In this document: one piece after another, positions 19,362 to 24,374 of the stretch
Layout of the letters: each line of letters starts with the position of its first letter
How positions within the stretch are numbered: position 1 is the first letter of the stretch
From: Propionibacterium acidifaciens DSM 21887
Lineage (GTDB): Bacteria; Actinomycetota; Actinomycetes; Propionibacteriales; Propionibacteriaceae
Reading direction: 5' to 3'
NCBI RefSeq assembly: GCF_000426605.1
Contig: NZ_AUFR01000008.1
Span: 1 to 64,000 of the forward strand
DNA length: 64,000 bases
Translations under genes and position numbers: made by a program
Notes under the pieces: generated by a model
What the model was told of the DNA's origin: nothing
Databases searched by the model: none
Seen by the model: only the letters and a program-made list of their open reading frames with translations

Positions 19362-21620
19362 TCAGCGCACCGGCCGGAAGCCGCGCAGCCGCAGGCTGTT
19401 CGTCACGACGAAGACCGAGCTGAAGGCCATGGCGGCCCCGGCGATCATCGGGTTGAGCAGGCCGAACGCGGCGATCGGGATCGCGCAGACGTTGTAGAAG
19501 AAGGCCCAGAAGAGGTTGCCCCGGATGATGCGCAGCGTGGCGCGCGACAGGGCGATGGCATCGACGGCGAGCATGAGGTCGTGGCGCATGAGCGTGAGGT
19601 CGCCGGCGGCGATGGCCGCGTCGGTGCCGGTGCCCATGGCGATGCCGAGATCGGCGGCGGCCAGGGCGGCGGCGTCGTTCACCCCGTCGCCGATCATCGC
19701 GACCCGGTGGCCCTCCGCGCGCAGCCCGTCGACGACCGCCAGCTTCTCCTCGGGCAGCACCTGGGCGTGCACCTCGTCGATGCCCACCAAGGCGGCCACG
19801 TGGCGCGCGGCGCGCTCGTTGTCGCCGGTGAGCATGACCGTGCGCAGGCCCAGCGCGTGGAGGCGCCCGACGGCCCGGGCGGAGTTGTCGGCGAGCTCGT
19901 CCGAGACGGTGAGGACGCCGCGCACGGCGCCGTCCCACGCCACGAGGACGACCGTCGCGCCCCGGTCCGAGGCGGCCACGGCCGCGGCGGTGAGGACGTC
20001 GGGGACCTCGAGACCCTCGTCGGACATGAGGGCGGCGCTGCCGACGAGGGCGTCCGCCCCGTCGAGGACGGCCCGCACACCGCGCCCGGGGACGACCCGG
20101 AAGTCGCCCGCCGCGGGCGCGGGGCCCCGTCCAGCGGCCCGGGCGACGACGGCCCGGGCGATCGGGTGCTCCGAGCCCGCCTCGAGGGCGGCCGCGGCGA
20201 CGAGCACGCGGTCCTCGTCCTCGCCGGGCGCCGCGGTGATCCGCTGGACGCTCATCTCGCCCCTGGTGAGGGTACCGGTCTTGTCCATGACGACCGTGTC
20301 GATCGCCCTGGCCCGCTCCAGCGCCTCGGGGCCCCGGATGACGACGCCGAGCTGGGCGCCGCGCCCCGTGCCGGCGAGCAGGGCCGTCGGGGTGGCCAGG
20401 CCGAGGGCGCAGGGGCAGCTGATGATGAGCACCGAGACGCCGGCGGTGATGGCGAAGCCGACGCCCGCGCCGGCGACGAGCCAGGCGCAGAAGGCGAGGA
20501 GGGCCAGCACGATGACGACGGGCACGAAGACCGAGGCGATCCGGTCGGCCAGGCGCTGGGCGTTGGACTTGCCCGTCTGCGCCTGCTCGACGAGGTGGGC
20601 GATCTGCGACAGCTGCGTGTCGGCGCCCACGGCCGTGGCCCGCACGACGAGGCGGCCGTTCGTGTTGAGCGTGGCGCCGACGACGCGGTCGCCGGGGCCG
20701 ACGTCGACCGGCACCGACTCGCCGGTGATGACGTGGGCATCGATGGCCGAGGCGCCCTCGACGACCTCGCCGTCGGAGGCGATCTTCTCGCCGGGACGGA
20801 CGACGAAGCACTGACCCACCCGCAGGGCCTCGATGGGCCGGGTGGTCTCGGTGCCGTCGTCGTCCAGGACGTGGACGGCCCTGGCGCCCATCGTGAGCAG
20901 CTCGCGCAGGGCCGAGCCGGCCTCGGAGCGCGAGCGGGCCTCGATCCAGCGGCCCAGCAGGATGAAGGTGATGGTGCCGCAGGCGGCCTCGAAGTAGACG
21001 GCGTCGAGCGAGTCGGCGCGCACCAGGTGCAGGCTGAACGGATGCTTCATGCCGAGCGTCCCGGCGTTGCCGAAGATCAGGCAGAAGGCGCTCCACAGGT
21101 AGGCGGCCAGGGTGCCGACGCTGATGAGCGTGTCCATCGTGAAGGCGCCGTGCCGGAGGTTGACCCATGCGGAGCGGTGGAATCCCCGGCCGCTCCAGAA
21201 GAGCACCGGGGTGGTGAGCGCGAAGGCGACCCACTGCCAGCCGGGGAACTGCCACGGGGTGACCATCGAGACGGCCATGACCGGCACGGCGATGGCCGCC
21301 GAGACGACCAGCCGACGCCTGATCGCCTCGGTGCGCGCCCTGGCCGCGGCCTCGGCGTCCTCGCTCGGGTCGGGCGGGCCGGCGTCGTAGCCGGCGGCGC
21401 GCACGACGTCGATGAGCGCCTCACTCGTCGTGCCGCGCGGCGCCAGGACGTGGGCCCTGGCGGTCGCGTAGTTCACCGCGGCCCGCACGCCGTCGATCCT
21501 GTTGAGCTTCTTCTGGATGCGCGCGGCACAGGACGCGCAGGTCATGCCCTGGACGTCGAGGTCGATGCTCGTGAGGGCCTCGCCCCGCTCGGCGGCGGGC
21601 GTGCCGACGGTGTCGGTCAT
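19362..21620 (-). CDS. copA: copper-exporting P1B-type ATPase
   Basis: A 752-residue P-type ATPase. One N-terminal heavy-metal domain has GMTCASC (about residues 25-31). Eight membrane helices are expected. The actuator loop has the ITGES motif, the intramembrane copper site is SCPCALGLATP, the phosphorylation loop is DKTGTLT, and the ATP-binding and hinge regions include HPIARA and GDGVNDAAAL. The CPC motif with CsoR and CopZ upstream points to Cu(I) export. GGAAGG precedes the ATG. It is the third gene of csoR-copZ-copA, 45 bases after copZ. Confidence 0.95.
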   Translation of the reverse strand: MTDTVGTPAAERGEALTSIDLDVQGMTCASCAARIQKKLNRIDGVRAAVNYATARAHVLAPRGTTSEALIDVVRAAGYDAGPPDPSEDAEAAARARTEAIRRRLVVSAAIAVPVMAVSMVTPWQFPGWQWVAFALTTPVLFWSGRGFHRSAWVNLRHGAFTMDTLISVGTLAAYLWSAFCLIFGNAGTLGMKHPFSLHLVRADSLDAVYFEAACGTITFILLGRWIEARSRSEAGSALRELLTMGARAVHVLDDDGTETTRPIEALRVGQCFVVRPGEKIASDGEVVEGASAIDAHVITGESVPVDVGPGDRVVGATLNTNGRLVVRATAVGADTQLSQIAHLVEQAQTGKSNAQRLADRIASVFVPVVIVLALLAFCAWLVAGAGVGFAITAGVSVLIISCPCALGLATPTALLAGTGRGAQLGVVIRGPEALERARAIDTVVMDKTGTLTRGEMSVQRITAAPGEDEDRVLVAAAALEAGSEHPIARAVVARAAGRGPAPAAGDFRVVPGRGVRAVLDGADALVGSAALMSDEGLEVPDVLTAAAVAASDRGATVVLVAWDGAVRGVLTVSDELADNSARAVGRLHALGLRTVMLTGDNERAARHVAALVGIDEVHAQVLPEEKLAVVDGLRAEGHRVAMIGDGVNDAAALAAADLGIAMGTGTDAAIAAGDLTLMRHDLMLAVDAIALSRATLRIIRGNLFWAFFYNVCAIPIAAFGLLNPMIAGAAMAFSSVFVVTNSLRLRGFRPVR

Positions 21621-21665: not shown

Positions 21666-21881
21666 TCAGGCCTCGGCGACCCGGTAGTCGCCGGCCTCGT
21701 CGACCGCCTCGGCGATTCGGGCGAAGTCGATCGGGGCGTCGCTGGTGACGACCATGGAGCCGTCGGCGAGGCTGACCTCGACGTCGATGACGCCGTCGAG
21801 GGCCGAGACCTCCTCGGTGATGTGGTGGACGCAGTGCTCGCAGGTCATGCCGGTGACGGTGTAGGCGGCGGTGGTGGCCAT
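21666..21881 (-). CDS. copZ: CopZ-type copper chaperone
   Basis: A 71-residue single heavy-metal-associated domain with a ferredoxin-like fold. The Cu(I)-binding GMTCEHC motif lies at residues 11-17. It carries copper to CopA. The ATG at 21881 is preceded by CAGGAGGAAG. It lies 83 bases after csoR and 45 bases before copA, and should be part of the same CsoR-controlled transcript. Confidence 0.95.
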   Translation of the reverse strand: MATTAAYTVTGMTCEHCVHHITEEVSALDGVIDVEVSLADGSMVVTSDAPIDFARIAEAVDEAGDYRVAEA

Positions 21882-21964: not shown

Positions 21965-22369
21965 TCAGGAGCGGACGAGCCGGGCGATGGCGTCGGAGGC
22001 CTCGGCCAGCCTGATCTCTGCCTCGTCGCCTCCGGCCCGGGCGGCGCGTACGACGCAGGTGCTCAGGTGCTCGTCGAGCAGGGTCAGGGCCACGGACTGC
22101 AGCGCCCTCGTCGTGGCGGAGACCTGGGTGAGGATGTCGATGCAGTACTGCTCGTCGTCGACCATCCGCTGGAGGCCGCGCACCTGACCCTCGATGCGAC
22201 GGAGTCGCTTGAGGTAGCCGTCCTTGTCGGCGAGGTAGCCGTGGTGGTGCCCGCACTCGGGGTCACGGCCCCGTCCGGGGTCGCCGTCGGACACGGCGCC
22301 GCCGGACGGGGCCGGCGCCGTTCCTGTGACGGAGAACCCCTTTTCTGTGTGTCCGTCCTGCGCGTTCAT
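21965..22369 (-). CDS. csoR: CsoR-family copper-sensing repressor
   Basis: A 134-residue all-helical repressor. The three Cu(I)-ligand positions of CsoR are present: Cys76 (QYCIDIL), His101 and Cys105 (DEHLSTC). A basic DNA-facing segment, YLKRLRRIEGQVRG, is conserved. A His/Cys-bearing N-terminal stretch (DPECGHHHGY) is extra. Without copper it should bind the palindrome in its own promoter and repress csoR-copZ-copA; copper binding releases it. The ATG at 22369 is seven bases after the -10 box TAGTCT. Confidence 0.94.
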   Translation of the reverse strand: MNAQDGHTEKGFSVTGTAPAPSGGAVSDGDPGRGRDPECGHHHGYLADKDGYLKRLRRIEGQVRGLQRMVDDEQYCIDILTQVSATTRALQSVALTLLDEHLSTCVVRAARAGGDEAEIRLAEASDAIARLVRS

Positions 22370-22376
22370 GGGGCTG

Positions 22377-22405
22377 AGACTAATACCCCACAGGGGTACT
22401 TTCAA
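22377..22405 (-). promoter_or_regulatory. csoR-copZ-copA promoter with CsoR box in the spacer
   Basis: Read on the minus strand: -35 TTGAAA (22405-22400), a 17-base spacer, -10 TAGTCT (22382-22377), seven bases, then the csoR ATG. The spacer is almost entirely the palindrome TACCCC-N3-GGGGTA (22384-22398), a CsoR-type operator. Bound repressor would occlude RNA polymerase. Confidence 0.8.
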
Positions 22406-22556: not shown

Positions 22557-22821
22557 TTATCCACAGCAGGGGTGCCCGCCCGTGGACAACCCCGGTCTCC
22601 CCCGGCGCCCATAGCGCAGCGACGAGGAGAGCGCAAGTCGCCCGCCGACCCGCCGCAGCGCACAGAAAATCTCACAGTCGACGCACATCACCCCTTGTCA
22701 AATAGATTTACCCGCACACGATCCTGTGAGCGCACAGCACTGTGCACAAGCCGTCCACGGGACACGCCGGGAACGTCCACACCCATCCCGGAGTTGTCCA
22801 CACGGCCTGTGGACAACTCCG
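22557..22821. promoter_or_regulatory. DnaA-box cluster upstream of dnaB
   Basis: Exact boxes: TTATCCACA at 22557-22565 (+), TTGTCCACA at 22794-22802 (+) and 22808-22816 (-). One-mismatch boxes: TTGTCCACG at 22581-22589 (-) and TTGTGCACA at 22741-22749 (-). The last exact pair forms a perfect palindrome with 14-bp arms (22789-22802 and 22808-22821) around CGGCC. An AT-richer patch, CTTGTCAAATAGATTTAC, lies at 22694-22711. Either an origin-like region or a DnaA-responsive promoter for dnaB. Confidence 0.65.
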
Positions 22822-23015
22822 TCGGAATCGGTCGGCCCGCGGTGGACTGGCACCCCGCGCAGCGCTAGCGTGAGGGGCCGTGCGGGTCGATCGACTCACC
22901 CGCGGAGGGCCTTCGGACGCCGCCAAGACGGGCCGGCGGGCGCTGCGCGGATCCGTGTCGGTGGTCATCCCTAGCGTGGTCCGCATCGCCGCTCGGAGGA
23001 CGGAAGGGGAGGATC

Positions 23016-24374
23016 ATGACCATCACGTCGATCATGAACGAGGCGCCGGGCCCCGAGGCCCTCGACCGCACCCCCCCGCAGGACATCGAGGCCGAGAAGT
23101 CCGTGCTCGGCGCCATGCTGCTGTCGAAGGACGCCATCGCCGACGTCACCGAGGGCCTGCGCGCCGACGACTTCTACCGTCCCAACCACGAGGCGATCTT
23201 CAACGCCATCATCGAGCTCTACGGCCACGGCGAGCCCGCCGACGCGGTGACTGTCGCGGCCCAGCTCGAGAGGACGGGCGAGCTCGAGCGGGTGGGCGGG
23301 CGCGTCTACCTCATCGACCTCATGCAGTCCGTCTCGATCGCCGCCAACGCCGGCCATTACGCCCAGATCGTCCACGACAAGGCCACGCTGCGACGCCTCG
23401 TCGAGGCGAGCATGAAGATCTCCCAGCTCGGCTACCAGGGCGCCGGCGAGGTGCCCGACATCGTCGACGCGGCCCAGCAGGCCATCTACGAGGTCTCCGA
23501 CATCAACACCTCCGACGACTACCAGTCGCTGAAGGATCTCCTCGAGCCGACGATCGACGAGATGGAGGCCATCCAGTCGCACGACGACGCGATGTCGGGC
23601 GTGCCCACCGGCTTCGCCGAGCTCGACGAGCTCACCAACGGCCTGCACGCCGGCCAGATGATCATCGTCGCGGCCCGCCCGGCCGTCGGCAAGTCGACGC
23701 TCGCGCTCGACCTGGCGCGCTCGGCGGCCGTGAAGAACGGCCTCACGACCGTCTACTTCAGCCTCGAGATGGGCAAGACCGAGCTCGTCATGCGCCTGCT
23801 GTCGGCCGAGGCGGGGGTGCCGCTCAACCACATCCGCAACGGCAGGATGAGCGAGGACGACTGGCAGCGGATCGTCCGCAAGACGGGCCACGTGCAGGAG
23901 GCGCCGCTGTTCATCGACGACTCGCCCAACCTCACGATGATGGAGATCCGCTCCAAGGCCCGCCGCCTGCGCCAGCGCAACGACCTGCGGCTCGTCATCA
24001 TCGACTACCTCCAGCTCATGAGCTCGGGCCGCAAGGTCGAGAGCCGTCAGCTCGAGGTCTCCGAGTTCAGCCGCCAGATCAAGCTGCTCGCCAAGGAGCT
24101 GCAGATCCCCGTCATCGCGCTGTGCCAGCTCAACCGCGGCCCCGAGCAGCGCAACGACAAGAAGCCGATGCTGTCCGATCTGCGCGAGTCCGGTTCGCTG
24201 GAGCAGGACGCCGACGTCGTCATCCTGCTCCACCGCGAGGACGCCTACGACCGCGACAGCCCCCGCGCCGGCGAGGCCGACTTCATCGTCGCGAAGCACC
24301 GCAACGGCCCGACGGCCACCGTCACGACCGCGTTCCAGGGCCACTACTCGCGGTTCGTCGACATGCAGCGCTGA
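23016..24374 (+). CDS. dnaB: replicative DNA helicase DnaB
   Basis: A 452-residue hexameric helicase. The N-terminal collar domain is residues 20-160 (PPQDIEAEKSVLGAMLLS at its start). The RecA-like motor has Walker A ARPAVGKST (Lys226), Walker B LRLVIIDYLQLM, and the arginine-finger region near LREGSG-type segment LRESGSLEQDAD. There is no intein, unlike many mycobacterial dnaB genes. GGGGAGGATC precedes the ATG. It is not accompanied by rpsF, ssb, rpsR or rplI, which often lie near dnaB. It starts just beside a DnaA-box cluster. Confidence 0.97.
   Translation: MTITSIMNEAPGPEALDRTPPQDIEAEKSVLGAMLLSKDAIADVTEGLRADDFYRPNHEAIFNAIIELYGHGEPADAVTVAAQLERTGELERVGGRVYLIDLMQSVSIAANAGHYAQIVHDKATLRRLVEASMKISQLGYQGAGEVPDIVDAAQQAIYEVSDINTSDDYQSLKDLLEPTIDEMEAIQSHDDAMSGVPTGFAELDELTNGLHAGQMIIVAARPAVGKSTLALDLARSAAVKNGLTTVYFSLEMGKTELVMRLLSAEAGVPLNHIRNGRMSEDDWQRIVRKTGHVQEAPLFIDDSPNLTMMEIRSKARRLRQRNDLRLVIIDYLQLMSSGRKVESRQLEVSEFSRQIKLLAKELQIPVIALCQLNRGPEQRNDKKPMLSDLRESGSLEQDADVVILLHREDAYDRDSPRAGEADFIVAKHRNGPTATVTTAFQGHYSRFVDMQR

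Follow-up and report, generated by a model that had tools for sequence, protein, structure and literature searches.

The closest described counterparts of the locus studied here come from mycobacteria. A DnaA pull-down in Mycobacterium tuberculosis recovered Rv0057, upstream of the replicative helicase gene dnaB, among its five top regions, and the available text of PMC7738170 reports binding of DnaA upstream of dnaB in vitro and in vivo, in both M. tuberculosis and M. smegmatis. The Rv0057 region concerns the same gene at the same place as our locus, and dnaB expression is described as dropping in a weak-binding DnaA mutant (available text of PMC7738170). The same source describes, at Rv0010c–Rv0011c of M. 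tuberculosis, a DnaA-bound palindrome of two DnaA-box-like sequences resembling the one analysed below, but among other genes and tied to drug susceptibility rather than to dnaB. In a distant phylum, dnaB of Caulobacter crescentus is a member of the DnaA regulon, with boxes upstream and a response to DnaA (as cited in the accessible part of PMC8203912). Double boxes in Escherichia coli likewise depend on a pair at fixed spacing, although the pairs in the accessible part of PMC11317965 are separated by 2–3 bp and given in a single orientation, whereas the pair described here is inverted with 5 bp between. The dnaB gene of Streptomyces coelicolor (SCO3911) belongs to the modelled HrdB regulon (PMC6344877). 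Within the open-licence literature, PMC7738170 was the sole paper found to report DnaA at dnaB in Actinomycetota.

The window, by which we mean the whole 64-kb stretch of DNA that was analysed, carries dnaB on the forward strand at 23016–24374 (452 aa, PF00772 and PF03796), the one DnaB match at E ≤ 1e-50 in its genome. The switch of gene direction noted in the preliminary description was borne out: dnaB runs rightward, and its divergent neighbour at 21965–22369 on the reverse strand encodes a CsoR-family copper repressor (PF02583), the first gene of a leftward copper operon that also comprises an HMA protein gene (about 21666–21881) and a P-type ATPase gene (19362–21620). Using a CsoR query that began upstream of the gene and had three stops set to X, we found CsoR and CopA homologues upstream of dnaB in three other Propionibacterium genomes, the divergent csoR-copA layout being present in 4/4 compared. 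An inverted repeat, TACCCC-ACA-GGGGTA, stands before csoR at 22384–22398 and resembles a CsoR operator. In several relatives (L178, L180, L207 and L230–L236), dnaB itself consists of two matching parts inside one open frame, as inteins would give.

All three exact TTRTCCACA sites of the window fall within 22557–22821 (shuffled sequences: mean 0.17, maximum 1), out of 21 exact DnaA boxes in the 3.04-Mb genome (Propionibacterium in the broad sense, assembled in 85 contigs), a genome-wide count that had been proposed beforehand. The distal box, TTATCCACA, lies at 22557–22565 on the forward strand, 237 bp upstream of the first proximal box, and converges with a one-mismatch partner, TTGTCCACG (22581–22589, reverse strand), at an offset of 24, roughly one helical turn above the usual 14. 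An intermediate box with one mismatch, TTGTGCACA, occupies 22741–22749 on the reverse strand. The proximal pair consists of two exact copies of TTGTCCACA, at 22794–22802 on the forward and 22808–22816 on the reverse strand, which converge inside a perfect palindrome at 22789–22821 with 14-bp arms (22789–22802 and 22808–22821) and a 5-bp centre. The preliminary description's account of three exact boxes, two one-mismatch boxes and a perfect inverted repeat therefore stands, with no further exact box in the 64 kb. The AT-richer patch that it mentioned is present but modest: AT content is 35.5% across the span and 28.9% in the window as a whole, which ranks the span at the 87th percentile among stretches of 265 bp, and its richest 25-mer, at 22687, reaches only 64%.

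Conservation of this arrangement upstream of dnaB in relatives, suggested beforehand as a check, was assessed in a one-per-genus sample of 27 Propionibacteriaceae genomes, 26 of them with a usable dnaB start (L178, with no N-terminus, was left out). At least one exact box was found upstream of dnaB in 26/26 genera, with 47 exact boxes against 0.12 expected; chance level was derived from Markov resamplings of 27 upstream regions, including that of the dnaB paralogue L179 and leaving out a second paralogue, L181. The inverted pair at offset 14 (5-bp spacer) was present in 17/26 genera at ≤1 mismatch per box and in 22/26 at ≤2, and at 0 loci in the Markov controls. Two of the 26 genera had no recognisable palindrome upstream of dnaB, and the divergent paralogue L179 had no DnaA box upstream. 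Conservation is wide at the 9-bp boxes, at the final two spacer positions and at a single base following the second box; arms of 14 bp are a peculiarity of the window, and flank symmetry was rejected as a part of the operator. A distal inverted pair is frequent in family members at a similar distance, and the converging offset of 24 ranks second commonest among Propionibacteriaceae in the comparison of Actinomycetota dnaB-upstream regions. Distal–proximal separations cluster at 226–249 bp; helical phasing between the two elements was considered and dropped, with no period standing out among these separations.

The gene rplI precedes dnaB in many other Actinomycetes, and the cluster might have been a relic of an rplI neighbourhood. 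This possibility was rejected, as the stretches within 1500 bp downstream of rplI in the family hold one exact box across 26 loci. Judged by sequence comparison, the inverted pair goes with dnaB rather than with rplI, and its spacing is unlike the tandem one preferred near dnaA. In a wider set of 81 deduplicated Actinomycetota dnaB loci (duplicate-genus loci L007, L008, L093 and L096 and upstream regions <500 bp removed), converging pairs at offset 14 with ≤1 mismatch per box occurred at 28/81 loci, and at 24/42 in and near the family, while 79 control stretches past dnaB contained no pairs at that threshold. The family part of this set overlaps the one-per-genus sample, so that the two are not independent; L010/L154 and L032/L166, for example, look identical at the palindrome. 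Class-level samples retained the loci with usable upstream sequence, 20/29 from the class and 24/27 from other classes. Exact boxes upstream of dnaB were found at 9/20 loci of the class outside the family and at 2/24 from other classes of the phylum; set against 26/26 genera in the family, these counts describe a feature that is pronounced in the family, uneven within the class and almost missing beyond it. The inverted pair was seen in Propionibacteriaceae, Streptomyces and Frankia, and tandem spacing (offset 11 or 12) was frequent in the class loci; the Mycobacterium loci compared have boxes in tandem, 2 bp apart, as opposed to the inverted pair of Propionibacteriaceae. Work on Streptomyces from 2006 reportedly described DnaA-box clusters named H69, H24 and D78, one of which may be the site upstream of dnaB.

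A search of the 27 genomes for perfect DnaA-box palindromes returned 11 sites in nine genomes, six of them upstream of dnaB. The other five comprise one in G016, on the upstream side of dnaA and some 1.1 kb past the match to the DnaA domain; one in G006, at the far end of a contig whose start carries dnaA, which would place it next to dnaA if the contig were circular; and three elsewhere. A further perfect palindrome of two DnaA boxes lies in the Propionibacterium freudenreichii-like, single-contig genome G003 at C1:283962–283984 (L090:7963–7985), far from dnaA and dnaB and in a stretch with no obvious gene. Upstream of dnaB in the same genome there was no exact box, one-mismatch boxes only.

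The proximal pair of the window is followed by a putative housekeeping-type core promoter, P1, with a −35-like hexamer TGGACT at 22843–22848 and, after 17 bp, a −10-like hexamer TAGCGT at 22866–22871, both on the forward strand and the latter 49 bp after the second box. A sigma-70 scan of the site gave no promoter at its thresholds; TAGCGT and its surroundings are identical in the nearest relative, G001, in an alignment. To describe spacing across the family, the proximal pair was anchored in 24/26 genera (total mismatches ≤3). The start of a TANNNT element lay 28–29 bp after the pair at 15/24 loci, 38–40 bp at four and 48–51 bp at two, the window among the last group with its 49 bp, which amounts to steps of one helical turn; three of the 24 anchored loci had no TANNNT at 20–60 bp after the pair. 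Stricter anchoring (≤2 mismatches) was possible in 22/26 genera, at 27 loci of the wider family set and at four others. In the wider family set, which overlaps the first, TANNNT peaks fell at 28–30, 39 and 50 bp (27 anchors, N = 23, R = 0.86), and all four anchored loci outside the family (three Streptomyces, one Frankia-type) had TANNNT at 28 bp. We infer that TANNNT would be the −10 element of the dnaB promoter.

A similar periodicity was observed in the class. Across the 20 class loci outside the family, boxes on the plus strand lay 31, 42–43, 52–53, 62–64 and 74–76 bp before TANNNT. These distances follow a 10.5-bp phase (N = 23, R = 0.757, p about 2e-6, approximate as some loci contribute several distances), although a period of 11 fits as well; four control hexamers in the class loci showed no clear phase (p 0.05–0.59). 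For minus-strand boxes of the family in the 20–90 bp range, 10.5 bp was not the best period (R 0.495); periods of 10 and 12 gave 0.594 and 0.605. The phasing claim therefore rests on the proximal pair and the plus-strand boxes. At the Mycobacterium interjectum locus, inspection by eye gave no TANNNT at a phased distance from the tandem boxes. Helical phasing to the promoter is a feature of the loci compared here and is not mentioned for mycobacteria in the available text of PMC7738170.

The box cluster, the modestly AT-richer patch and the switch in gene direction had led the preliminary description to consider an origin-like site, a suggestion that did not hold up. An oriC would be expected at dnaA-dnaN, with an array of boxes and an unwinding element, and 22557–22821 does not answer to this: dnaA-dnaN lies on another contig, C25, with DnaA boxes of its own in the intergenic regions on both flanks of dnaA. 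Where relatives have both genes on one contig, dnaB is 64–350 kb from dnaA (64 kb in G021, 170–175 kb in G007, G015 and G025, 253 kb in G008, 317 kb in G014 and 348 kb in G023), and for G006 and the single-contig G003 a circular contig would give a separation of about 400 kb. The geometry also differs, since tandem pairs at offset 12 dominate around dnaA (13/26 loci) and the converging offset of 14 occurs there at 1/26. That the span serves as a replication origin, or as an additional site of origin type, is hardly credible. Two observations had been named beforehand as counting against the initial proposals; boxes at dnaA elsewhere were indeed found, whereas a loss of the boxes upstream of dnaB in relatives was not.

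A second candidate promoter, P2, lies on the forward strand at 22955–22977, 106 bp downstream of P1, and has the form GTGTCGGTG-N8-TAGCGT. It is of the RecA-NDp/PafBC type: the consensus of LexA/RecA-independent damage promoters is tTGTCRgtg-8 nt-TannnT (accessible part of PMC5656591), and P2 matches the promoters described there and in the accessible part of PMC6789036 except for the weak first letter. The main text of these two papers names dnaB nowhere. P2 is the sole copy of TGTCRGTG-N8-TANNNT in the window. Upstream of dnaB in the family, a motif of this type with a spacer of exactly 8 (≤1 mismatch in TGTCRGTG) was found in 16/26 genera against 0.1 expected, and outside the family at 5/40 and 1/20 loci. 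With one mismatch, the whole genome holds 22 sites against three for a reversed control. At the 13/22 sites inspected (TANNNT intact), the longest following open reading frame was considered, giving recC-like, radA, DNA helicase, gyrase B-like, RecF-like ATPase, BrxA, DUF3644/restriction-like, DUF6531 and dnaB products; one further site precedes a gene with a weak helix-hairpin-helix match behind a box cluster on C6, and three others had no clear name or were unscanned. The genome also has two adjacent WYL-domain open reading frames (404 and 337 aa), candidates for pafB and pafC, and PafBC would be the likely factor acting at P2.

Among the individual sites, the only exact genomic TTGTCRGTG-N8-TANNNT, at C2:8000–8022 (L238), precedes an open reading frame with a DUF6531/RHS-type domain. 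A RecA-NDp-like motif at C8:50391–50413 (L246) stands 79 bp before brxA and suggests that a BREX phage-defence system may be damage-induced. The C6 cluster is a second non-oriC group of DnaA boxes in this genome, with three exact boxes in 217 bp (C6:22274–22490; L003:8275–8491), upstream of the helix-hairpin-helix gene, which is divergent from a HAD hydrolase gene; the interval separating the cluster from the helix-hairpin-helix gene contains a RecA-NDp-like motif at C6:22609–22631. Homologues of the helix-hairpin-helix gene in G001 and G002 have box pairs 13 bp apart next to them.

Taken together, we favour, with a probability of about 0.78, the reading of the site as an upstream regulatory region of dnaB in which DnaA on the inverted pair, next to the core promoter P1, most likely activates transcription, with P2 as an additional putative damage promoter. 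The DnaA-controlled dnaB promoter named in the preliminary description is well supported by the comparative sequence data and by the mycobacterial DnaA binding upstream of dnaB (available text of PMC7738170). A member of the DnaA regulon should carry boxes upstream of the gene beyond chance, keep them in relatives in association with the gene rather than its neighbourhood, and hold them in a defined geometry relative to the core promoter; the dnaB locus shows all three, the last with the exceptions listed above and relative to a promoter that is itself predicted. In its mechanism, DnaA would bind the inverted pair, and probably the distal and intermediate boxes too, on a fixed face of the DNA, with two DnaA molecules presumably occupying the palindrome just upstream of P1. 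Bound DnaA would contact RNA polymerase and most likely activate dnaB, so that helicase supply would follow the amount or state of the initiator, while P2 should, through PafBC, allow dnaB levels to rise after DNA damage. The most frequent layout has the nearer box immediately upstream of the −35 region and the farther box slightly over one turn behind it, and whole-turn shifts are tolerated, which fits an activator touching RNA polymerase; activation also fits the M. tuberculosis DnaA mutant, in which reduced binding to the dnaB promoter goes with reduced dnaB production (available text of PMC7738170). We regard the site as a conserved DnaA regulatory region of dnaB, of a known kind, but its defined geometry, the phased inverted pair, was not found described in the open-licence literature.

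The same boxes might have other roles. DnaA is known to repress some promoters, its own included. Its autoregulation (accessible part of PMC8203912) provides a precedent for repression of dnaB, which we regard as quite improbable: the most frequent layout would place the end of the nearer box near −41, on the upstream side of the −35 element, the phase kept after a shift of one or two turns would suit an activator better than a blocker, and weaker DnaA binding in the M. tuberculosis mutant goes with less dnaB rather than more (available text of PMC7738170). We infer that DnaA activates dnaB rather than represses it. A DnaA sink or DnaA-state site of the datA, DARS or Streptomyces D78 type would lower or reset free DnaA, its adjacency to dnaB being incidental. 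Strong boxes clustered within a few hundred kb of oriC, a distal element at about 226–249 bp in many relatives and the other non-origin cluster on C6 would all suit such a site. It would, however, need neither linkage to dnaB nor phasing, and the boxes stay with dnaB whatever gene adjoins it (csoR in the window, elsewhere rplI or some other gene), are lacking from rplI regions without dnaB, and are phased to a −10-like element, so that a sink is unlikely. Sites of the datA/DARS type are defined in E. coli (accessible part of PMC4585315), with IHF- or Fis-dependent conversion of the DnaA nucleotide state as their hallmark. Sink and promoter roles could coexist.

The perfect 14-bp arms might equally suggest that the dnaB leader forms an RNA hairpin or a terminator, as might the fact that left and right boxes are rarely in the sole A/G combination that would break pairing. 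This very improbable reading was rejected: neither a terminator-like site nor an Rfam match was found at the site, complementarity outside the 9-bp boxes, taken over 58 pairs, drops to what chance would give within a few bases, and the predicted P1 start lies downstream of the palindrome.

Returning to DnaA control of dnaB, a broader version is tentative and, on balance, doubtful. It holds that a class-wide, helically phased DnaA operator would make dnaB a two-input gene in Actinomycetes, with the inverted pair, from which the initiator activates helicase synthesis, replacing the tandem pair of other promoters, the distal element (about 236 bp upstream) looping through a DnaA domain I dimer, of the kind described for Actinomycetes (PMC13270200), and the damage promoter serving to reload forks. 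If this were true, the helicase level would be a direct read-out of the state of DnaA.

Under activation, DnaA would not only recruit the replicative helicase but also set the amount made. The site represents a class of DnaA site, inverted with a 5-bp spacer, that is distinct from the tandem pairs of E. coli and of the dnaA surroundings here. With a fixed geometry kept across several orders, regulation of dnaB by DnaA passes from a loose notion to a promoter architecture open to testing, defined by face, spacing and nucleotide state; in Propionibacteriaceae, a candidate DNA-damage promoter also stands in front of the replicative helicase gene.
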